Source of the DNA: Candidatus Micrarchaeaceae archaeon
GTDB lineage: Archaea; Micrarchaeota; Micrarchaeia; Micrarchaeales; Micrarchaeaceae
Direction of reading: 5' to 3'
Length of the DNA: 36,792 bases
NCBI GenBank assembly: GCA_027310755.1
Contig: DAIDAE010000008.1
Coordinates: 1-36,792 of the forward strand
The notes below the pieces were generated by a model. The model did not search any database, was not told the origin of the DNA, and was given only the letters and a program-made list of their open reading frames with translations. Below are positions 21,351 to 30,498 of this stretch, piece after piece. How positions within the stretch are numbered: the first letter of the stretch is position 1; the number at the start of each line of letters is the position of its first letter. A program made the translations under genes and the position numbers.

Positions 21351-22405
21351 CCGAAATTATTAAGATAAATGCCACAGCACCAGAAAAAAGCAAAATTGCT
21401 GCCGCAGCCAAGTACATAAAAAATGGAGGAATAGTTATTTTCCCAACCGAGACCGTATATGGCATAGGTGCAAATGCATTTGATGGAAACACGTGCGCCA
21501 AAATATTCAAAGTCAAGGACCGGCCGGTAGACAATCCGCTCATTGTTCATGTTTCCTCCTTTGAGATGGCGAACGATGTTGGCGTTATTCCAAAAGAATA
21601 CACAGATGTCATAAAGAAAATCTGGCCATCTCCAATAACCTTCATAGTCAAAACAAGAAAGAAGTTTCCAAAGGAAGTGACCGCCGGATTGGAGACTGTT
21701 GCAATAAGGATGCCCGCGCATCCAGTTGCACTGGCGCTTATTATAAAGTCCGGTGTCCCGATAGCGGCGCCGAGCGCCAATCCCTCCAAGAAGCCAACCG
21801 CAACCAATGCAAACCAGGCGATAAAATACTTTGATGGAAAAGTGGATTGCATAATAGACTCGGAAAGGTCGTTTTTTGGAGTAGAGTCAACAATAATAGA
21901 TTTAGAACGGTTTGTCGTACTTAGGCCAGGGCCGTTTACTCCGGAAGAGATAGAACGAGCATTTGGCAAGAAGATAAAAGTCGATAAAATTGCCAAGGGG
22001 GAAATCAACGCAGAGCAAGCAATAAGCCCTGGCACAAAATATCGGCACTACTCTCCCGAAACCCCTTTCTATCTTTTTGAAGGACAGATTGACTCACTAA
22101 TAGAAGAACTGGACAATATTGAGCAAGTTCCTGAGTTTGCATTCATCGGCTCTAGCGAATCCTGCACCAAAATGTCGAAGGCGTTCGGTTGCAGTACAAT
22201 TGATCTGGGAGGCAGGTCAAACATGTATGAGATAGCGAAAAACCTTTATGACGGAATAATCCTGCTGGATTCCCTGAAAGTAAAGTTTGGCGTAATCGAG
22301 GAATTTGATGAGGAAGGAATAGGCCTTGCTATAATGAACAGGATAAGGAAAGCAACATCTCACAAGACGTTCCCGAATGAAATAAGAAACCTTAAAAAGG
22401 TTTGA
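21347..22405 (+). CDS. sua5: Threonylcarbamoyl-AMP synthase (Sua5/YrdC family)
   Basis: Makes threonylcarbamoyl-AMP from threonine, bicarbonate and ATP, the precursor of t6A37 in ANN-decoding tRNAs. The YrdC domain (about 1-205) shows GGIVIFPTETVYGIGANAF, the K-x-R motif in KVKDRPVDNPL, APSANPS and VESTIIDL...RPGPFT. The linker SPGTKYRHYSPETP leads to a C-terminal Sua5 domain (about 235-345), so this is the longer Sua5 type. ATG 21347 overlaps the TrmY stop. Its own TGA overlaps the ATG at 22405 of a Cys-rich mini-frame, suggesting further coupling. Confidence 0.94.
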   Translation: MTEIIKINATAPEKSKIAAAAKYIKNGGIVIFPTETVYGIGANAFDGNTCAKIFKVKDRPVDNPLIVHVSSFEMANDVGVIPKEYTDVIKKIWPSPITFIVKTRKKFPKEVTAGLETVAIRMPAHPVALALIIKSGVPIAAPSANPSKKPTATNANQAIKYFDGKVDCIIDSERSFFGVESTIIDLERFVVLRPGPFTPEEIERAFGKKIKVDKIAKGEINAEQAISPGTKYRHYSPETPFYLFEGQIDSLIEELDNIEQVPEFAFIGSSESCTKMSKAFGCSTIDLGGRSNMYEIAKNLYDGIILLDSLKVKFGVIEEFDEEGIGLAIMNRIRKATSHKTFPNEIRNLKKV

Positions 22406-22536
22406 TGAGCAGTATTTCCATGGCAAAGAAAAATGAATGCAAATACGGAGCTACGTGCAACTACGGAATGAAGAAAGGCAAATGAATGTGCGCAAGTGAT
22501 TGCTCGTGCGGCTGCGATTGCGGAGATAAGAAATAA
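22405..22536 (+). CDS. Metallothionein-like Cys-rich mini-gene split by an in-frame TGA
   Basis: ATG 22405 overlaps the Sua5 stop (TGATG). It opens a 26-codon frame whose second Met begins MAKKNECKYGATCNYG and which ends at TGA 22483-22485. The very next codon, in the same frame, is ATG, followed by a 16-aa frame MCASDCSCGCDCGDKK ending at TAA 22534-22536. Read together they form one Cys-rich peptide of the metallothionein kind, with clustered CxC pairs. Either two tiny proteins are made by stop-start reinitiation, or the gene is a recent nonsense mutant. TGA is an ordinary stop elsewhere in this window. Metal binding is inferred only from Cys spacing. Confidence 0.45.
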
Positions 22537-22601
22537 TCCTCTAACAGCTTACGAAGCATTTACGATGTTATTAAGCTATTCCTAGCGCTATTTTACTACG
22601 A

Positions 22602-22729
22602 CATAAGAATCTCGAATGCCCGTGCGCCGGAGCGTGCAACTGTATCTATAAATGCCAGCCGAGGCTCTTTGCAAATGCCTTGGAAACTGCGATTGTGGAT
22701 GTACTTGCGGTGAAAAGGGCGGAGAATGA
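22602..22729 (+). pseudogene. Second, frameshifted metallothionein-like copy
   Basis: One frame reads LECPCAGACNCIYKCQP (22611-22661), resembling the EC..GA.CN part of the upstream mini-gene. A second frame starting ATG 22652 reads MPAEALCKCLGNCDCGCTCG and ends at TGA 22727-22729, resembling the CSCGCDCGDKK end. The two similar halves lie in different frames and the first has no usable start codon. The simplest reading is a tandem duplicate broken by a frameshift. The second half could still be expressed as a 25-aa peptide. Confidence 0.45.
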
Positions 22730-22838
22730 AACCAAAATTACATTCATAAATTTTTAGCATATGCGATTGTAGCAGAAAATAACACAATAAACATAAATAC
22801 TACACCGAACAAGAGTCTCTTTAATCTTTGGCATTCTT

Positions 22839-24164
22839 ATGGCAACACTTGATCGTAGGGTTATATGTGCTTGGCCTAACCCTCCGCCAAAATTACACGG
22901 CGGTTTGCTAAACGGGGCCATAACTGATTCTTCTAATCCAACTCACGTGAGCATGCTCGATAATGGCATACAGATGGTGGTTAGGAAAGTGCCTGGCGTA
23001 AACACAACACTTTCTGTATTCAGCGTCAATTACGGCGATATACATAGTCGACAACAGTTTGACAGACCAACAGCGCATTTTCTTGAACACATGCTTTTCA
23101 GGGAAACCAAAAAACGAAGCTCGCGTAGATTGTGGAGCAGAATAATGACTCTTGCAACCGATTTTAATGGAATTACTTTCGACGACGCTACAATATTTTA
23201 TCTGAGAACTGTGAAGGAAGATGCGCCGAAGGCCGTGGAAGTGCTTTCAGACATGATGCTAAATTCCAGATTGAGGGGTACAACAATTGAAAAGGAAAAA
23301 GGGCCCATAATGCAGGAATATGCAACATATCGTGATGATCCATATTACCCCGCGTACGAGAGAGTCGAGTCTATACTATTCAGAGGGCACCCAGCCGGCA
23401 GACCATCGGTGTTTACAGATAAAGAAATTGCAAGCATGAGACGCCGTGACGTTGTCCAAGCATGGAGGGAAGAATATACTCCAGACAATGCCGTAGTCAC
23501 GCTTTATGGTGCAGTTACAAAGGCAGCAGAAAATGCAGTAAGGAAGTATCTTTCGGGAATGGCAGGTAGGCTTAAAACACCGAAGATAATATCAGCTAAT
23601 CTTGATCAAAAAAGAACATTAGAGACATTGCACAGTCCTGGCTTAAATCAGGCGCAAGTAGTGATGGGGATAAAATTCCCACCGATCAATCCAAAATCCG
23701 ATCTTAATCATCTGTTGGCAATGGATCTTCTCACGGAGATAGCCACAGATAAGCTTTGGGCAAGGGCCAGGACCGACAAAGGATGGGTATACGGAATCCG
23801 AGCTGGGATAGACCCACATGCATCATATGCATACACGGCAGTTTGGTCTGGAACCTCCCCAAGACGACTCAATCGTCTTACAGATTTGATATACAATACG
23901 CTCGACGAAATGGCAGCCGGAGAGATAACCGAAAGGGAGGTCGCAAGGAACAAGAGGCTTATCTTAAGAAATGCAACCGCAAATACTGAGCTGGTAGAAG
24001 ATGGCGGACATGATCTTGCAATAGAAGCTACTGTATTGAAAAGACCAGACCTCGCTGAAAACAGGCCTGCTCTCGTGACTTCTATAACTCTAGACCAAAT
24101 AAGAGAGGTTGCCCAGAAACATCTTGATACTAGCAGATCAGTGACAGTGCATCTCAGACCATAA
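22839..24164 (+). CDS. M16-family zinc metallopeptidase
   Basis: A 441-aa pitrilysin/processing-peptidase-like protein. The inverted zinc motif HFLEH is at residues 80-84 and the third ligand Glu160 is in GPIMQEYATYRDDP. The second half-domain carries the conserved GWVYGIRAG and YTAVWSGTSP segments near residues 310-335. It is about the size of a single-subunit bacterial M16B or a mitochondrial-processing-peptidase beta-like chain, and no second subunit is adjacent. No signal peptide is obvious, so it is probably cytoplasmic, but the N-terminus (RRVICAWPNPPPKLHGG) lies outside the family core. The local sequence is more AT-rich than the dehydrogenase operon. M16 is less common in archaea, so horizontal acquisition is possible. 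Confidence 0.9.
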   Translation: MATLDRRVICAWPNPPPKLHGGLLNGAITDSSNPTHVSMLDNGIQMVVRKVPGVNTTLSVFSVNYGDIHSRQQFDRPTAHFLEHMLFRETKKRSSRRLWSRIMTLATDFNGITFDDATIFYLRTVKEDAPKAVEVLSDMMLNSRLRGTTIEKEKGPIMQEYATYRDDPYYPAYERVESILFRGHPAGRPSVFTDKEIASMRRRDVVQAWREEYTPDNAVVTLYGAVTKAAENAVRKYLSGMAGRLKTPKIISANLDQKRTLETLHSPGLNQAQVVMGIKFPPINPKSDLNHLLAMDLLTEIATDKLWARARTDKGWVYGIRAGIDPHASYAYTAVWSGTSPRRLNRLTDLIYNTLDEMAAGEITEREVARNKRLILRNATANTELVEDGGHDLAIEATVLKRPDLAENRPALVTSITLDQIREVAQKHLDTSRSVTVHLRP

Positions 24165-24189
24165 AACATTTATTACTAATTTTTACGAA

Positions 24190-24228
24190 AAGACTAAGTT
24201 TAAATACCATAAAATACTCCATAGTCTT
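24190..24228 (+). promoter_or_regulatory. TATA box bracketed by a 7-bp inverted repeat
   Basis: TTTAAATA (24199-24206) lies about 41-48 nt before ATG 24247. It is flanked by AAGACTA (24190-24196) and its exact complement TAGTCTT (24222-24228), 25 nt apart. The distal arm falls at or just before the predicted transcription start, so a dimeric regulator could occlude the promoter. A weak AAGGT precedes the ATG. Confidence 0.4.
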
Positions 24229-24246
24229 ACTGATTAAGGTATCAAT

Positions 24247-24741
24247 ATGATGTCAGACAAAGCGCCAGTAGCAAAAGACGTATCCAGCGAAGTCAAAAGC
24301 ACCGCTTCTGGAATAGCATTGCGCAAAGGAGTTGTCAGGCCATACGATCCAACTGTCAAAGTGAGGGAAGAGGCTGGTTATATCGAGGACGTAACCGGTC
24401 AGAAGCCAGAAATTGTGCTGCTTAGGATTGCAAAGGGCAAAGGTGTGCAGAGGCAGTCTAAAAAAGGTGAGCAAGTAGACGAAAATAGAGGTTTTGTTCT
24501 GGATGTGACAAGGTGGAGTCCGGAATCAGTACAACTTAAGATTTCAGGAGGCAACGGCGTTGTTGAAGAAGTTGCCGGAATGGATCCCACTATAATTAAC
24601 AAAAGGGTTGCCAGACAGAGAGGCATAGTAGAGTTAGAGATGCTGGATGTCGACTTAGAGCCCGTTAAGAAACGTGGAATAATACAAGTGTATGGTGAAG
24701 CCGACCCTGTAGGTCTCGGCAAGAACCTTGGCCTTGTCTAA
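24247..24741 (+). CDS. Protein of 22-residue beta-like repeats, unknown function
   Basis: No known family is recognised. The 164-aa protein contains at least three 22-residue units that begin with Gly: GYIEDVTGQKPEIVLLRIAK.., GFVLDVTRWSPESVQLKISG.. and GVVEEVAGMDPTIINKRVAR... More degenerate units lie before (GVVRPYDPTVKVREEA) and after (GIVELEMLDVDLEPVKKRG). The pattern is about G-hydrophobic-hydrophobic-x-[DE]-V-x4-P-x2-hydrophobic, with a 16-residue Lys/Gln/Glu-rich insert after the first full unit. There is no signal peptide or helix, so it is presumably a cytoplasmic small repeat or solenoid protein. The dedicated promoter with an inverted repeat suggests regulated expression. Confidence 0.7.
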   Translation: MMSDKAPVAKDVSSEVKSTASGIALRKGVVRPYDPTVKVREEAGYIEDVTGQKPEIVLLRIAKGKGVQRQSKKGEQVDENRGFVLDVTRWSPESVQLKISGGNGVVEEVAGMDPTIINKRVARQRGIVELEMLDVDLEPVKKRGIIQVYGEADPVGLGKNLGLV

Positions 24742-24780
24742 ATGACAGGTTTAGCGATAGTGATGCTGTTCACCATACCC

Positions 24781-24795
24781 GGCGCACCAGGCGCC
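24781..24795. terminator. GC-rich hairpin between convergent genes
   Basis: GGCGC-ACCAG-GCGCC forms a 5-bp stem with a 5-nt loop, about 40 nt after the repeat-protein stop and about 55 nt after the CDGSH gene stop on the other strand. Its place between convergent genes suits a bidirectional transcript end. It lacks a strong U-run. Confidence 0.25.
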
Positions 24796-24848
24796 CCGGC
24801 ACGTATTGCCATGAGTGCGCTGTTGTGTAAAATCCTCCCATTGGAGTA

Positions 24849-25025
24849 CTATTCCTTAATCTCTAATTTGCTCGCTTCGGCGTTGAATTTGGCGGCGATA
24901 TGGGCCCCGCTACAGAAAGGCTTCTTTGTGGAGTGGCCGCACCTACACAAAGCAAATTCCACCTTTTCTCCCCTTTTGACAAGTATGGGCCCGTCTTTTA
25001 CAAATTCAAATTCCACTTTATCCAT
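24849..25025 (-). CDS. CDGSH-type iron-sulphur mini-protein
   Basis: A 58-aa frame from ATG 25025 with GGTGA 4 nt upstream and an ATTATATAATTT box about 35 nt before it. Residues 27-42 read CRCGHSTKKPFCSGAH, matching the CDGSH signature C-x-C-x2-[ST]-x3-P-x-C-x-G-[SAT]-H that binds a 2Fe-2S cluster with three Cys and one His. The Asp of CDGSH is Ser here. The N-terminal strand part (VEFEFVKDGPILVKRGEKVEF) is typical of single-CDGSH proteins. The family carries electrons or labile clusters. It lies opposite a longer spurious frame on the plus strand. Confidence 0.8.
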   Translation of the reverse strand: MDKVEFEFVKDGPILVKRGEKVEFALCRCGHSTKKPFCSGAHIAAKFNAEASKLEIKE

Positions 25026-25100
25026 ATATTCACCGTATTGTATTGTGATGGCAAATTATATAATATGTGATTCAAGCGATCATCCGGTGTAAACATAAAG

Positions 25101-25136
25101 TGGAGTTGGCGGGATTTGAACCTGCGACCCGCCTCG
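25101..25136 (-). other. tRNA-Ala-like 3'-end fragment (possible att remnant)
   Basis: This reads CGAGG, variable region, T-arm, CAACUCC and A. Over about 35 nt it matches the 3' end of the tRNA-Ala(CGC) gene at 25410-25483, with three substitutions and one inserted base. No complementary 5' acceptor strand (GGAGUUG) occurs upstream on this strand, so it is not a complete tRNA gene. It lies on the 3' side of tRNA-Ala in the same orientation, the position of a duplicated tRNA 3' end left by an integrase. Confidence 0.5.
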
Positions 25137-25147
25137 AAGCTTAATTA

Positions 25148-25200
25148 TGGACTCTGCGGGAATCGAACCCGCGGTAGCGATGGCGGGTGCGCTAGACTCT
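25148..25200 (-). other. Second tRNA 3'-half-like segment
   Basis: It has a perfect T-arm GCGGG-UUCGAUU-CCCGC (25156-25172 on the plus strand), then AGAGUCC and A as an acceptor 3' strand and discriminator. Before it lies UAGCGCACCCGCC, which looks like a D-stem/anticodon-stem junction. CCCGC could pair with the GCGGG that also forms the T-stem, so one arm appears to be missing. No GGACUCU 5' strand is found. It may be a tRNA pseudogene with an internal deletion, or a trans-spliced 3' half. Confidence 0.4.
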
Positions 25201-25409
25201 AGCTCTTTTTGCTCTAAGTTTTGTTTCATTTAGCTCACCGTAGACTTATTTCGAAGACGCGAACATCTGTGTCTTCGCACACAGATTATACCGTGTTTAG
25301 AAATATAAAAGGATACGGTGCAAATCAAGCTGTATTCGCACACGGGGGCTGGTTGCACCAGACTGCCCTTGCTGAATTCGCACACTTGCTTGTAGGCGGG
25401 ATTTTTTAA
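25201..25409. repeat. Non-coding spacer with three TTCGCACAC repeats and hairpins
   Basis: No credible gene. TTCGCACAC occurs three times on the plus strand (25274, 25335, 25377). The first is part of a perfect 8-bp hairpin ATCTGTGT-CTTCGC-ACACAGAT (25265-25286). Another hairpin, CTGGT-TGC-ACCAG, lies near 25349-25361. It may be a structured RNA or a decayed element between the tRNA fragments. No SRP or RNase P signature was found. Confidence 0.4.
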
Positions 25410-25483
25410 TGGACTTGGCGGGATTTGAACCCGCAACCCCCTCGTTGCGAACGAGGTGCGCTACCAGTTTACGCTACAAGCCC
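25410..25483 (-). tRNA. tRNA-Ala (anticodon CGC)
   Basis: Acceptor GGGCUUG/CAAGUCC includes the G3:U70 wobble pair that identifies tRNA-Ala. The anticodon arm is CCUCG-UUCGCAA-CGAGG, with anticodon CGC reading GCG, and the T-arm is GCGGG-UUCAAAU-CCCGC. The discriminator is A and no CCA is encoded. There is no intron. A diverged copy of its last ~35 nt lies about 270 nt downstream. Confidence 0.95.
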
Positions 25484-25602
25484 TTCGGAAAGAATTATGA
25501 TTAACGAATTAATTAAGGTTTCTTTTTTTAAAACTCATTTAAAACCGCCATTTTCTCTTTTCGAGGGAAAATTATTTTTTGTTCAAAAAGTTATAGAAAA
25601 GA

Positions 25603-25610
25603 TATAAATA
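25603..25610 (+). promoter_or_regulatory. TATA box upstream of the large phosphoesterase gene
   Basis: TATAAATA lies about 29 nt before ATG 25636. Initiation there would start with a 17-codon frame and give the phosphoesterase gene (ATG 25738) a leader of about 100 nt. The leader has no evident Shine-Dalgarno next to the main ATG. Confidence 0.5.
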
Positions 25611-25635
25611 TTTGAATTGTTAGTGTTCAGTATAA

Positions 25636-25689
25636 ATGGGCGAAATGTTTGGGGGGTATAATTATCAGTGGGTGCAGCGACCAGTCTAG
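25636..25689 (+). CDS. 17-aa leader ORF
   Basis: A leaderless-positioned ATG encodes MGEMFGGYNYQWVQRPV, ending in TAG 48 nt before the main ATG. It is rich in aromatic residues and Gly. It could be an upstream regulatory ORF or chance. Translation is not demonstrated by sequence alone. Confidence 0.3.
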   Translation: MGEMFGGYNYQWVQRPV

Positions 25690-25737
25690 TTTTGTCAACA
25701 CGCTAATCTCATATTCAACTTGTAGAACCAGTTTGAC

Positions 25738-28700
25738 ATGGCAACCTCTAATCCCACCATATCTGATCTAAAGAGGGGTGATAATGACTCTTCTTTGCAG
25801 GAGCTAGAGGCACGCATCAATCGGGGCTATGGGTCCAAGGCAGTACCAACTTCACGTGCACCAATGCGCACAATATTCTGGTCCTTCGGCGAATTGGGAA
25901 CTGGTACGGAGTATGGCGGCGAGGCGCATCTTATCGGTGCCTGGAGCCTGTTCAAGCAAAGCATCGAAGAAGGAAGAGCGCCAGATCTTATTGTATTTCA
26001 CGGGGAAGCAATTGTAAAAATACCGCCATTTATTACAAAGGGCGGCCTCGAGGAGGCGCTCGTTATCAGAAAACACATCGATGAGCTCGACCACGGGGTC
26101 ATTGCCACAAAGCCGTATCTCAGCAGGATAGCCGATCTTGCAAAGGAAAACGGGACAAGGCTGGTATACGTAGTAAGCGCGAGCGACACCGCGAATGTCA
26201 AGAACTGGCACCAGCTAAATGTTAATGCTTATACATACAAGCCCAGAACTCTGCTCGAGCTCAGGGCAGCGTACAAGACAAGAGTGGAAAGCGTGTCGGA
26301 GGCTGTTGAGGCCACAGAGGCGAGCAGGAAGAAACTTTCGGAAGGACTTAAAAAGGCAGAAGACGAGCTAAGAGAAACCACAAAGGGAGGGGGTCAGGAA
26401 AGCGCAGAAGCAGCAGTAAACATCAACAGGAGCATACGCGCCTATAACCACCAATTAAAAACAGCAGAACAGAAGCTTGCGGAAAAGCGTGAAGAGCTTG
26501 CGGATTACCAAAGGATATTGGACCTCTATTCCGAGTTCGTGAAGCTGTGGATAAAACGCAACAGGGGCCCATTCGAAGAGGACATTTACAAGGCGTTCGA
26601 GGTTGTTGTAAAGAAGCTGTATGGAAAGCGCGCGGATATTTATGATGAGGAGGTGGACTCGGATCTTTTGGATTTGTTTGCACAAACCCTAGGGCCAAAA
26701 GAGGTGGTAAAGCAACTCTCCGCAGCGCGCGCGAAGCGCAAGGTTGTGGAGAAGCAGCTTGAGAAACTGGATTCTGAGAAGGACAAAGAGGAATACGATA
26801 AGCTGACCCTCGAGAAAAAGAGCCTTATAAATCTGGAGACAAAATTGTCGTTCGAGCGCACAGAGGAGGCGCGCGCCGCGGCGCAAAGGGACGAGACTAT
26901 AAGGAACCAGGCGGCGAACAGGCACAACAGGAACGCTCCAGGCTTCCCCAGCACCGCACAGAAATCGAATGAGATTGCAAAAGCGATAGTTCGTGCGAGC
27001 ATACTGGATGCTTTCGGAAGGAGGATGCCGATGGAGATAGTGGAAAATACTTATGCAACCATTGAGCTAAACGGCCTAAAGATAAAGGTTACCAACAAGC
27101 CCTCAAACACATCCTCTGTTTTTGTGAGAAATCCGCTCAAGGCGCTGGAGGGCATGCTCGCGGATGAACCGGTGGATTACATACTGGCTTCCCGGTCCCC
27201 GATAGCAAGATCAAAGCTGGTGCCGGTTAAGGACGCGAGCCCGGACCGGGCACAATTGATAGTGTCACCGCCCATGTTTGATCCAGAAGGATACTGGCGG
27301 GTCTGGGAGCAGAAGATCAAGACGACATTTACAGAATTATCGACCAAGGGAACCCCGACCTTCGGTTTCGACGAGATGGAGTTCGATGGCGTGAGGATGC
27401 ATCACACCTTCCACACCACCCATGAGCTGAAGGCGCTCGCGGACAGGGTGAAAATCTCCGAGATAGAGGTGCTGGCGAGGCTCCTCGAGACTCCTCTTAT
27501 TGGGAATAACCTGCAGCCATTGGATGACAGGGATCACCTGCAGCTCCGAAACAAGCTTCCTTCTGAGATAAGGGCAAGCCAGGACACCCGCAGGTTCTTC
27601 AACGCACTGCTCGAGGAGCTCGGAATAGACCCAAATGACATAAAGACGAGAAACGAGCTCGCCAGGAGGGTGAGAGAGATGGCCAGCGGAGGAGAGGTAG
27701 CTGCCGCAGAAAAATGGGAGCTGGATAAAGGCGAAATGGTGTATGCCATAGCCGGCTATCTCGGGAAAAGGGATCTGCAATCGCTCGCAGGAATAGGGAA
27801 AAGTTTGGAAAAGATGGGCGCCGTGCCAGACCCGCCAGAACTTGCAGCGGCGCTCAAATGGATCAGGGAGTACATCGCCCCCTCTGAAATTGACAGGGTT
27901 AGCACATTCAACAAGCTCAACATAAAGGCTGCAGCCGATCTGCACATAGGCAGCGAGGGTGCAGGCGAACCCACGGCCAAAGTAATGAACGCATGGGTCA
28001 GATTTGCACTGGACGATTTGAAGAAGACCCGCGAGCCGTACCTGATGTTTCTTAACGGCGACATAGTGGAAGGCAATCTTAGAAATCACAAATACGAGGC
28101 ATACGACCAGTTCCTTCCAAGAAACGAAAGCGAGTTTGTAACATGGGAGCGCGCGCTATGGAAGGAAAAGCAGGGATTGGTGCCTAGGGGCCTGGCGGCT
28201 GACATGGGCAATCCCGATTACAGGACCGTTGCTGCAAGATTGGCAAGGCATCCTGCAATGGATCCTGAAGGCGCGGAGTTCTTGCACATATTGGATGAAT
28301 ACAAGGCAAGGCTTTTCGATAAAACCCCAATCCACAGCTGGGATGAGCAGATGAACAGGGCGGCGCAGATACTCGGACCGCTGTTCCAGCACGAGCTATG
28401 TCAGGGAGGGGCTGCTGTGCCTGGCAACCATCCACGCACCCCAGAAAGGATTCTTGCAGAAAGCGCAGGCGTGATGGACAGGATACACCTGCCGGAAGAC
28501 AGGAGGCAGAACTTCAAGGTATTCAATGAAGGCAGCGACCAGGGCGGTTCCGGATCCATCAAGATTACCGGAGGGCCTACCGTTGGCATAGCCCACCAGG
28601 CAAGGCCGGAGATGGAGCTGGAAAAGCGCAGATCAACTGACATCATTACCGTGGCAGGCCACATACACGAGCCCACAATGACCGTTGTAGGCGATCGGGC

Positions 28701-29025
28701 AGTAGTGACTGGCGCCGCGCTCCAGGGAATCACCCATTATCCAAGGCACATCGGCATACCGACAAGCCAGGAGCTCAGGGGAGTCTCCGAATTCTCGGTT
28801 GTCTGGGACGAAAAGGGACGCGCCGTAAGGTTCACAGAGACCACCACCACTCAAGGTGATCTCAGGAGGCTCACGGATCCAAAAGGCGTGCCGTACCTGA
28901 GGGACGCGCATCCGCTGATCCAGAAGTTCGAGGCAGAAAGAAACAACGTGGTCCTCGATCCATCTGGTGTCAGGGCCCTGCAAAGGGTGGAACTCGGCAA
29001 GACTGCTGTAAAGTCGGTAGGTTAG
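25738..29025 (+). CDS. Giant coiled-coil protein with C-terminal calcineurin-like metallophosphoesterase
   Basis: A 1,095-aa protein. The C-terminal third (about 730-1020) carries a full set of dinuclear-metal ligands: ADLHIG (D734, H736), NGDIVEG (D775), PGNHPR (N897, H898), IAHQ (H953) and GHIHEP (H975, H977). Active phosphodiesterase or nuclease chemistry is therefore plausible. The first 170 residues and residues about 440-560 look like the two halves of a degenerate second phosphoesterase: DLIVFHGEAI at the GD position, YVVSASDTAN at GNHD, YILASRSPIA at GHxH. They are split by a long charged coiled coil (about 185-400). A helical segment (about 570-720) joins the two parts. There is no signal peptide. 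It is followed by the CCA-adding enzyme. The fold of the C-terminus is secure; the N-terminal relationship and substrate are inference. Confidence 0.8.
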   Translation: MATSNPTISDLKRGDNDSSLQELEARINRGYGSKAVPTSRAPMRTIFWSFGELGTGTEYGGEAHLIGAWSLFKQSIEEGRAPDLIVFHGEAIVKIPPFITKGGLEEALVIRKHIDELDHGVIATKPYLSRIADLAKENGTRLVYVVSASDTANVKNWHQLNVNAYTYKPRTLLELRAAYKTRVESVSEAVEATEASRKKLSEGLKKAEDELRETTKGGGQESAEAAVNINRSIRAYNHQLKTAEQKLAEKREELADYQRILDLYSEFVKLWIKRNRGPFEEDIYKAFEVVVKKLYGKRADIYDEEVDSDLLDLFAQTLGPKEVVKQLSAARAKRKVVEKQLEKLDSEKDKEEYDKLTLEKKSLINLETKLSFERTEEARAAAQRDETIRNQAANRHNRNAPGFPSTAQKSNEIAKAIVRASILDAFGRRMPMEIVENTYATIELNGLKIKVTNKPSNTSSVFVRNPLKALEGMLADEPVDYILASRSPIARSKLVPVKDASPDRAQLIVSPPMFDPEGYWRVWEQKIKTTFTELSTKGTPTFGFDEMEFDGVRMHHTFHTTHELKALADRVKISEIEVLARLLETPLIGNNLQPLDDRDHLQLRNKLPSEIRASQDTRRFFNALLEELGIDPNDIKTRNELARRVREMASGGEVAAAEKWELDKGEMVYAIAGYLGKRDLQSLAGIGKSLEKMGAVPDPPELAAALKWIREYIAPSEIDRVSTFNKLNIKAAADLHIGSEGAGEPTAKVMNAWVRFALDDLKKTREPYLMFLNGDIVEGNLRNHKYEAYDQFLPRNESEFVTWERALWKEKQGLVPRGLAADMGNPDYRTVAARLARHPAMDPEGAEFLHILDEYKARLFDKTPIHSWDEQMNRAAQILGPLFQHELCQGGAAVPGNHPRTPERILAESAGVMDRIHLPEDRRQNFKVFNEGSDQGGSGSIKITGGPTVGIAHQARPEMELEKRRSTDIITVAGHIHEPTMTVVGDRAVVTGAALQGITHYPRHIGIPTSQELRGVSEFSVVWDEKGRAVRFTETTTTQGDLRRLTDPKGVPYLRDAHPLIQKFEAERNNVVLDPSGVRALQRVELGKTAVKSVG

Positions 29026-29097
29026 GCGTTATTCTGGAGCAGCCAAACCTGATACAAGTATTTAAGCGTTCTTATGCTATTTTTTATGTTGATTTGA

Positions 29098-30498
29098 ATG
29101 GCTAGAGACTTGGGTCAGCAGGCAAGGAAGAAAATAGATAACATACTGGCCACGGTCCTGAAGGATGTTAAACCAACCGAGGCGGAGATGGAGAGCGCGA
29201 CCGCATACTCCAACGAGCTTATGGGCAGACTGAAGAAGGTGGTTCCCAAGGACGTGGAGATAATATCGGTCGGATCCGTGGCCAGGGGCACCCAGCTCAG
29301 GGGCTCCTCAGACATCGATATTTTTTTGCTGTTCCCGAGGGGAGTTGCAGAAGCAAGCATGGAGAGGAAGGGCCTCGAATTCGCGAAGAGGATAGTGAAA
29401 AGGCCTGAAAAGTACACCATAAAGTATGCAGAGCACCCGTACCTGATGATAACCAGCAACAGGTCCGGGCTGAAAGCCGATATAGTGCCCGCATTCAAGA
29501 TAACGGATTCCTCGCAAAGAGTGACCGCCGTGGACAGGACGCAGCTTCACAATGTTTTTGTGAACCAGAACCTTACAAGGAAGCAGAAGGATGATGTGAT
29601 ACTGCTCAAGGCTTTCCTTAAATCTCACAATATCTATGGAGCTGGAGCAAGGGTCGAAGGCTTCTCAGGCTACCTGTGCGAATTGCTGATACACCATTAT
29701 GGTTCCTTCGTTGACACCATTTCCGGCTTTGCACGAGCGCAGCCCCCGATGATAATATCGCCTTCAGAAAAGAAGGAATACAATGCCAAATCCTGCGAGG
29801 GCGCCCTGTTGCTGAAGAGATTTGAGAGGAAGCTGATAGTCCTAGATCCTACTGATGGAAACAGGAATGTCGCGGCAGTTGTTACCGAAGAGTCTCTGGC
29901 CAGGTTCACCCTGATTTCAAACATGTTCTTGAGCAATCCCAGCATAGATATTTTCTATGGCGCTGGCTATTCCGACATTTACTCCAAACGCAAACTTGAG
30001 AGGATAAAGAAAGAGATGGATTTGAATATGCATGTATTGTATTTTAAGGTCCCGGACATAGCCGAGGACATAATATGGCAACAGATAAGGAAGCTAAAGA
30101 ATGCACTAGAATCCTCCCTGCACAAATATGGGTATACGCCCGCTCTTGCTCTCGAAAATGTTGGCAGGAAGGAAGCGGTGATAGCATTGTTTATATCCAG
30201 TTCACATCAGGGTTACTCGCTTGTTGAGGGTCCAAGTGTCTTCATGCATAAGTCCGCCGAGAGGTTCATCCAAGCGCATTCTATTGAGCTGGGCACAATA
30301 TTAAGGGGTGACAGGATAAATTTCATGGAGCAGCCCAAATATAAAAACCCGAAACAGGCATTAGAAGCGGCCTTGGGGCAGAGGGAGATACTTCCATCCC
30401 ACATACAAAGAAAATACATCAAAATATACGTAAATGATGTCCCGGAATCAGTAGCCAAGCTCGTCTATTCGGAGTTCACGAGGAAGACTACCATATAG
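29098..30498 (+). CDS. cca: Archaeal CCA-adding enzyme (tRNA nucleotidyltransferase, class I)
   Basis: Adds CCA to tRNA 3' ends without a template, and no tRNA gene in this window encodes CCA. The 466-aa length and motifs match class I archaeal enzymes. GSVARGTQLRGSSDIDIFLL contains the catalytic D72 and D74, and the third acidic segment is LKADIVPAF near residue 127. The conserved RKQKDDVILLKAFLKSHNIYG and the FSGYLCELLIHHYGSF helix region follow, then a C-terminal tail domain. ATG 29098 follows a TTTAAG box by about 35 nt, so the leader is short and has no Shine-Dalgarno. Confidence 0.95.
   Translation: MARDLGQQARKKIDNILATVLKDVKPTEAEMESATAYSNELMGRLKKVVPKDVEIISVGSVARGTQLRGSSDIDIFLLFPRGVAEASMERKGLEFAKRIVKRPEKYTIKYAEHPYLMITSNRSGLKADIVPAFKITDSSQRVTAVDRTQLHNVFVNQNLTRKQKDDVILLKAFLKSHNIYGAGARVEGFSGYLCELLIHHYGSFVDTISGFARAQPPMIISPSEKKEYNAKSCEGALLLKRFERKLIVLDPTDGNRNVAAVVTEESLARFTLISNMFLSNPSIDIFYGAGYSDIYSKRKLERIKKEMDLNMHVLYFKVPDIAEDIIWQQIRKLKNALESSLHKYGYTPALALENVGRKEAVIALFISSSHQGYSLVEGPSVFMHKSAERFIQAHSIELGTILRGDRINFMEQPKYKNPKQALEAALGQREILPSHIQRKYIKIYVNDVPESVAKLVYSEFTRKTTI

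Follow-up and report, generated by a model that had tools for sequence, protein, structure and literature searches.

A protein family of Micrarchaeota joining an active-looking metallophosphoesterase domain to a probable degenerate copy split by a helical arm

Many calcineurin-like enzymes act on small metabolites, cyclic or dinucleotides, or phosphoproteins, and the metallophosphoesterase (MPE) fold can also serve binding and not catalysis, as in Vps29, a scaffold of retromer. Known pseudo-enzyme relatives of the fold occur as subunits of their own, such as the dead B-subunits of eukaryotic polymerases. The B-subunits show that a DP1-type phosphodiesterase can lose its catalysis (PMC6355029). 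Here we describe an archaeal protein in which an active-looking MPE domain is preceded, within the same chain, by a probable degenerate MPE domain that is interrupted by a long helical arm. The gene lies in a 36,792-nucleotide stretch of contig DAIDAE010000008.1 from a Candidatus Micrarchaeaceae archaeon, the whole of which is referred to below as the window; its reading frame opens with ATG and is laid out as follows.

25738..29025, + strand: whole gene, stop codon included, encoding the 1095-aa pseudo-MPE / arm / MPE protein (open reading frame; 48 full-length homologues)
25870..26178, + strand: probable degenerate MPE domain, first half, residues 45-147 (strand and helix order in the AlphaFold2 model, motif table), with remnants of motifs I (G51-E52-L53-G54) and II (G89-E90), the start of III (147-150) and R130, one of the residues invariant in 48/48 homologues
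26179..26997, + strand: helical arm or coiled coil, residues 148-420, separating motif III of the degenerate domain from motif IV and containing K361 (long helices in both models, fold search)
26998..27417, + strand: probable degenerate MPE domain, second half, residues 421-560 (AlphaFold2 strands, motif table), with remnants of motifs IV (~453) and V (~485-488) and a final beta hairpin
27418..27903, + strand: helical linker, residues 561-722, the least constrained part (model, dN/dS); contains E610 (47/48)
27904..28857, + strand: active-looking MPE domain, residues 723-1040 (ligands, profile matches, PF00149 matches)
28858..29022, + strand: basic C-terminal tail, residues 1041-1095, pI 9.8, of low model confidence (model, pI)

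The window protein has nothing significant by sequence in the PDB and no Pfam family above cut-off, and its family as a whole lacks Pfam or NCBIfam coverage. A protein search of 100 relatives returned matches in 19 genomes, and a 19-sequence profile was then used for searches of the order and the phylum. Matches were obtained in 46 of the 164 genomes of the order (24 of 54 genera) and in 50 of 301 genomes of the phylum; of the four beyond the order's 46, two, G195 and G261, come from other families of the class and are full-length relatives, and two are weak, covering motifs I-II only. The 48 full-length homologues recovered, about 840-1100 aa long, all keep both halves, which establishes the predicted architecture across the family, and the sole exception in the searches was a 159-aa N-terminal fragment (G089). 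No homologue was found that has the C-terminal domain alone, the observation that the first-pass annotation of this gene had named as speaking against its proposed tandem.

Judged by sequence, the C-terminal domain is clearly an MPE from the nuclease-rich, Mre11/DP1/SbcD-like part of the superfamily. It contains the calcineurin-like motif set DxH ... GD ... GNH ... H ... GHxH, and the window protein has all eight metal ligands (D734, H736, D775, N897, H898, H953, H975 and H977), just as the first-pass annotation had stated. Their conservation among the 48 homologues (35-48 of 48) marks a conserved active site: D734, H898, H953 and H977 are kept in 48, H736 and D775 in 47 and N897 in 45, while Q871 and E908 are invariant. 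The column of H975, the first His of motif V, holds His in 35 homologues and Asp in 13 (for example L021, L025 and L034), a ligand change that may shift metal preference. This variability, together with the appearance of Vps29 among the best fold matches, is what could be said for a scaffold that catalyses little or nothing, in which both MPE domains would be mainly binding modules as in retromer. We consider such a role very unlikely, given that the catalytic set, including H898 and H977 in 48/48, has been kept over very deep divergence next to a domain that lost it.

Profile-profile comparison with families built from the same order matched the C-terminal domain about equally to DP1 (P 4e-7), Mre11 (P 1.3e-6) and the SbcD-related phosphoesterases (P 1.4e-6), while seven unrelated neighbour families used as negative controls gave P ≥ 0.24. 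These matches are stronger than that between DP1 and Mre11 themselves (P 1.5e-4), which argues that the domain is a sister-type branch of the superfamily, outside the DP1, Mre11 and SbcD-related families. PF00149 was matched by 10 of 19 homologues at E ≤ 0.05, and none of the 19 members matched an NCBIfam model for Mre11 or DP1 (PRK04036).

All five motifs can be traced, in order, as remnants in the N-terminal half, with GELG in place of DxH (I), GE or GG in place of GD (II), SxxD in place of GNHD (III), TNK in place of H (IV) and SRSP in place of GHxH (V). Only 0-3 of the eight ligand positions are canonical in any of the 48 homologues, so that the catalytic motifs are lost, and neither the catalytic His position 149 nor the last His position 488 has the canonical residue in any of them (0/48); the comparison thus establishes a predicted dead site. 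Scattered survivals at other positions (D52 in 10, H54 in 5, H453 in 9 and H486 in 22 of 48) look like decay from an active ancestor. The N and C profiles match each other in register over motifs I-IV (P 0.004; P 0.00085 for the first half alone), a score equalled by 1 of 60 block-shuffled profiles for the whole N-half and by 0 of 60 for its first half. Against Mre11 the N profile gave P 0.035, and against DP1 P 0.2, the latter equalled by 17 of 60 shuffles.

The full AlphaFold2 model (9-sequence alignment, pLDDT 63.5, pTM 0.65) gives both halves the same order of strands and helices and places each of the five motifs where equivalent strands end. Before the arm, the N-half comprises strand 45-50, helix 62-77, strand 84-88, helix 126-138 and strand 141-145, followed after the arm by strands 433-435, 439-444 and 447-452, helix 466-474 and strands 481-484, 492-496, 506-509, 543-549 and 554-560. 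The C-half runs through strand 724-733, helix 743-764, strand 768-774, helix 868-884, strand 888-895 and helix 908-915, and continues with strands 926-928, 936-942 and 948-952, helix 958-963 and strands 970-973, 980-984, 987-991, 1016-1024 and 1030-1037. Modelled alone, the N fragment takes the same order again (pLDDT 72.2). Many loops, as well as residues 779-802 and 823-864 of the active domain, have pLDDT below 50. A Foldseek search of the full model against the PDB ranked MjMre11 first (prob 1.00, E 3.9e-3), followed by Vps29 and 5'-nucleotidases, which have MPE folds, and a YfcE-like (COG0622) protein was also listed; neither the full model nor the N fragment gave any fold match at E ≤ 0.001.

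Could the N-half instead be an alpha/beta domain of other descent, interrupted by a coiled coil, its likeness to MPE motifs being due to chance? The poor profile match to DP1 would fit, as would the Pfam scan of the N-half, in which no MPE family appeared, and its PDB fold search, where coiled-coil and helical-bundle proteins predominate. At the head of that list, however, stands 2cv9 from Thermus, an MPE (E 0.037), and chance resemblance must also account for the motif order from I to V, the equal succession of strands and helices with motifs at strand ends, the N-to-C profile match against shuffles and the sporadic ligand survival. In the viral fold search of the N-half most matches were to unnamed or coiled-coil proteins and none reached E ≤ 0.001; its one high match, probably Roseovarius phage orf27 to judge by organism and length, again tells against chance through a weak PF00149 match. 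In the phage record (FR682616, L193 11773-12933) orf27 is annotated as hypothetical, and its PF00149 match (E 0.0028) is below cut-off. We regard an unrelated fold as distinctly improbable, and an MPE origin of the N-half, on the basis of motif order, model and weak profile signal, as very probable; the MPE fold itself is supported but not proven. The models, of moderate confidence, do not show the unrelated N-terminal fold that the first-pass annotation had considered damaging to its proposal, and together with the motif table they support its central claim, a tandem of MPE pseudo-enzyme and enzyme in which a helical arm divides the pseudo-enzyme, the N-terminal fold being likely.

The arm is present in both models as long helices over residues ~148-420, the longest being 128-176, 179-234 and 309-350 when counted within the N fragment, whose first residue is 42. 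The coiled coil foreseen between the degenerate halves is therefore there, at about 270 residues rather than about 200. Within it, K361 is kept in 45 of 48 homologues. The arm is flanked by the halves of the dead MPE-like domain, not by ATPase halves, and a Pfam scan of the window protein found no Rad50-type ATPase domain in the chain. A rather improbable elaboration is that the protein acts as a lineage-specific single-chain nuclease, a pseudo-dimer of dead and live MPE domains with an SMC/Rad50-like arm that would do the job of Mre11-Rad50 without an ATPase, by holding the ends of nucleic acids and cutting on one side only.

The degenerate domain appears to be constrained like the enzyme half. 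Averaged over all pairs, identity is 0.279 in the dead domain and 0.270 in the active one. Among close pairs, dN/dS lies at 0.025-0.097 in the dead domain and 0.019-0.105 in the active domain, with 0.019-0.18 in the arm and 0.08-0.24 in the linker (residues 561-722), which has the highest value in every computable pair; these values are rough, since several pairs are near synonymous saturation. Taken at the sequence level, the estimates establish purifying selection on all parts. Equal conservation of the two halves and their similarly low dN/dS, in the pairs that allowed both to be computed, point to a functional dead half; that its conservation equals that of the catalytic half speaks for an important role outside catalysis.

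Copy number is one in nearly all carrier genomes; one genome (G102) has two divergent copies, L090 and L091, on different contigs. Another of the homologues, L037, lies at G021 C1 777721-780486. Divergence within the first 19-sequence alignment was too great for degenerate-pattern scans. The one such scan carried out, over 84,980 prokaryote species with a pattern that spans only part of the family, matched Micrarchaeota only. In a quick tree of the family, five changes of host-family label were counted over two host families, against 17.5 in shuffles, and the window protein is placed beside g18 and g3, two genera of its own family (support 98). A tree that follows host families and a patchy distribution fit an old family with many losses.

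Within the window, the gene occupies a variable slot (22405-29098) that lies between Sua5 and the CCA-adding enzyme and in congeners holds a tRNA-Ala alone or unrelated genes. In the congener G011, for example, Sua5 and CCA are separated by tRNA-Ala(CGC) alone, over 0.27 kb. The first-pass annotation had read the adjacency to the CCA gene as a hint of nucleic acid end processing. This argument finds no support: among the homologous loci fetched, the CCA gene is beside a family gene only in the window genome, on which ground a CCA operon was also rejected, and in congeners where both are visible CCA is near tRNA-Ala without the reading frame. The gene has the highest GC content in the window (53.1% vs 46.8% around it), but its GC3 of 0.611 falls inside the window's range, so that base composition does not support a recent horizontal gain. 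The tRNA-Ala is at 25410-25483 on the minus strand, and two orphan pieces resembling tRNA 3' ends lie nearby within 25101-25215 (-), one (25101-25130) 90% identical to the 3' end of the tRNA-Ala and a second at 25148-25177; ARAGORN and Rfam found no complete tRNA in them, and possible origins are integration scarring, tRNA decay or one half of a split tRNA.

A defence or mobile-element protein, moving between micrarchaea and cleaving invading nucleic acid, would account for a patchy family found in 24 of 54 genera of the order and in none of the 13 other genomes searched from the window's own genus, for its changing genomic position and for its place between tRNA-Ala and CCA, where congeners spanning the junction have no such gene. 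Against this, the tree tracks host families, searches of phage, plasmid and viral contigs found no family match, and the tRNA 3'-end repeats are on the opposite side of the tRNA-Ala from the gene. Among anti-phage models (PADLOC; DS8) the window protein matched none, and single members gave only scattered weak matches, with no coherent PADLOC match to the family. Mobile cargo was likewise rejected, as no att-bounded element surrounds the gene, and we consider a defence role highly unlikely. Conserved neighbour function was discarded too: common neighbours are mostly confined to genera or small genus groups, and with no neighbourhood common across genera no pathway is indicated. Some neighbours are RNA genes (CCA, a DEAD helicase, a tRNA endonuclease and a radical-SAM/wyosine protein), an apparent mild lean, and others are transporters and chaperones.

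Our tentatively favoured reading is of a stand-alone two-metal phosphoesterase with a dead internal MPE copy as constitutive partner domain, whose substrate would most likely be nucleic acid. The protein would be soluble, its C-terminal domain hydrolysing a phosphodiester, and the N-terminal pseudo-domain may pack against it much as the second protomer does in MPE dimers, forming a built-in pseudo-subunit. The arm, sprouting beside the dead active site, might hold the substrate, perhaps RNA, or a partner protein. The nuclease reading draws on class resemblance, on matches of 9 of 19 members to the PHROG 'DNA repair exonuclease' (best 3.2e-11) and on the mild RNA-gene lean of the neighbours. 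The same architecture could, with less likelihood, serve a small phosphorylated metabolite, a cyclic or dinucleotide or a phosphoprotein, with the pseudo-domain in an allosteric role. Pointing that way are the best NCBIfam matches of single homologues, to YaeI-, LpxG- and YfcE-like phosphoesterases and all weak, the 5'-nucleotidases and YfcE-like protein in the Foldseek list, and the slightly acidic N and C domains (pI 5.8-6.3). Nucleic acid is in turn favoured over such targets by the PHROG matches, by the helical arm and basic tail, unusual for a metabolite enzyme, and by the clear profile matches to two nuclease families, DP1 and Mre11, although the match to the SbcD-related family is just as good.

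The first-pass annotation had likened the design to Mre11/Rad50 or to the small subunit of polymerase D (PolD), and this likeness is weakly supported: the C-terminal domain is near both, yet the protein has no ATPase, belongs to neither family and shares its genome with separate genes for each. The window genome has its own DP1 (L106), Mre11 (L107) and SbcD-related protein (L108), all universal or nearly so in the order sample, so the tandem protein replaces none of them. The Mre11 gene (L107 883-2130) is adjoined by a DHH-phosphoesterase-like reading frame, with no obvious Rad50 in the fetched stretch; TIGR00606 (Rad50) scores poorly even in control archaea, which makes its silence in the window genome uninformative. 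Like PolD DP1, which its C-domain profile matches, the tandem protein has an acidic-Gly pattern at motif II (GDxxEG, with GDVADG in the genome's own DP1); unlike DP1, it has a dead copy and a helical arm and lacks a DP1 NCBIfam match. With Mre11/SbcD it shares a profile match, the top PDB fold match and all MPE ligands, whereas the domain from which its arm extends is a dead MPE-like one and not an ATPase. The phosphoesterases of TIGR00024 and TIGR04123 (SbcD-related archaeal phosphoesterase and PdeM) resemble the C-terminal domain at the level of profiles but are single-domain proteins of about 250-270 aa, with their own copy elsewhere in the window genome. Vps29, similar in fold, is a single eukaryotic domain that is not joined to an active MPE. 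No paper on a fused dead/live MPE pair with an arm was found in the open literature. The parts are known, and their combination, a fused dead/live pair with the arm in the dead half, is new as far as tested: the apparently dead partner lies in the same chain, bears the arm and is conserved as strictly as the catalytic half over deep divergence.
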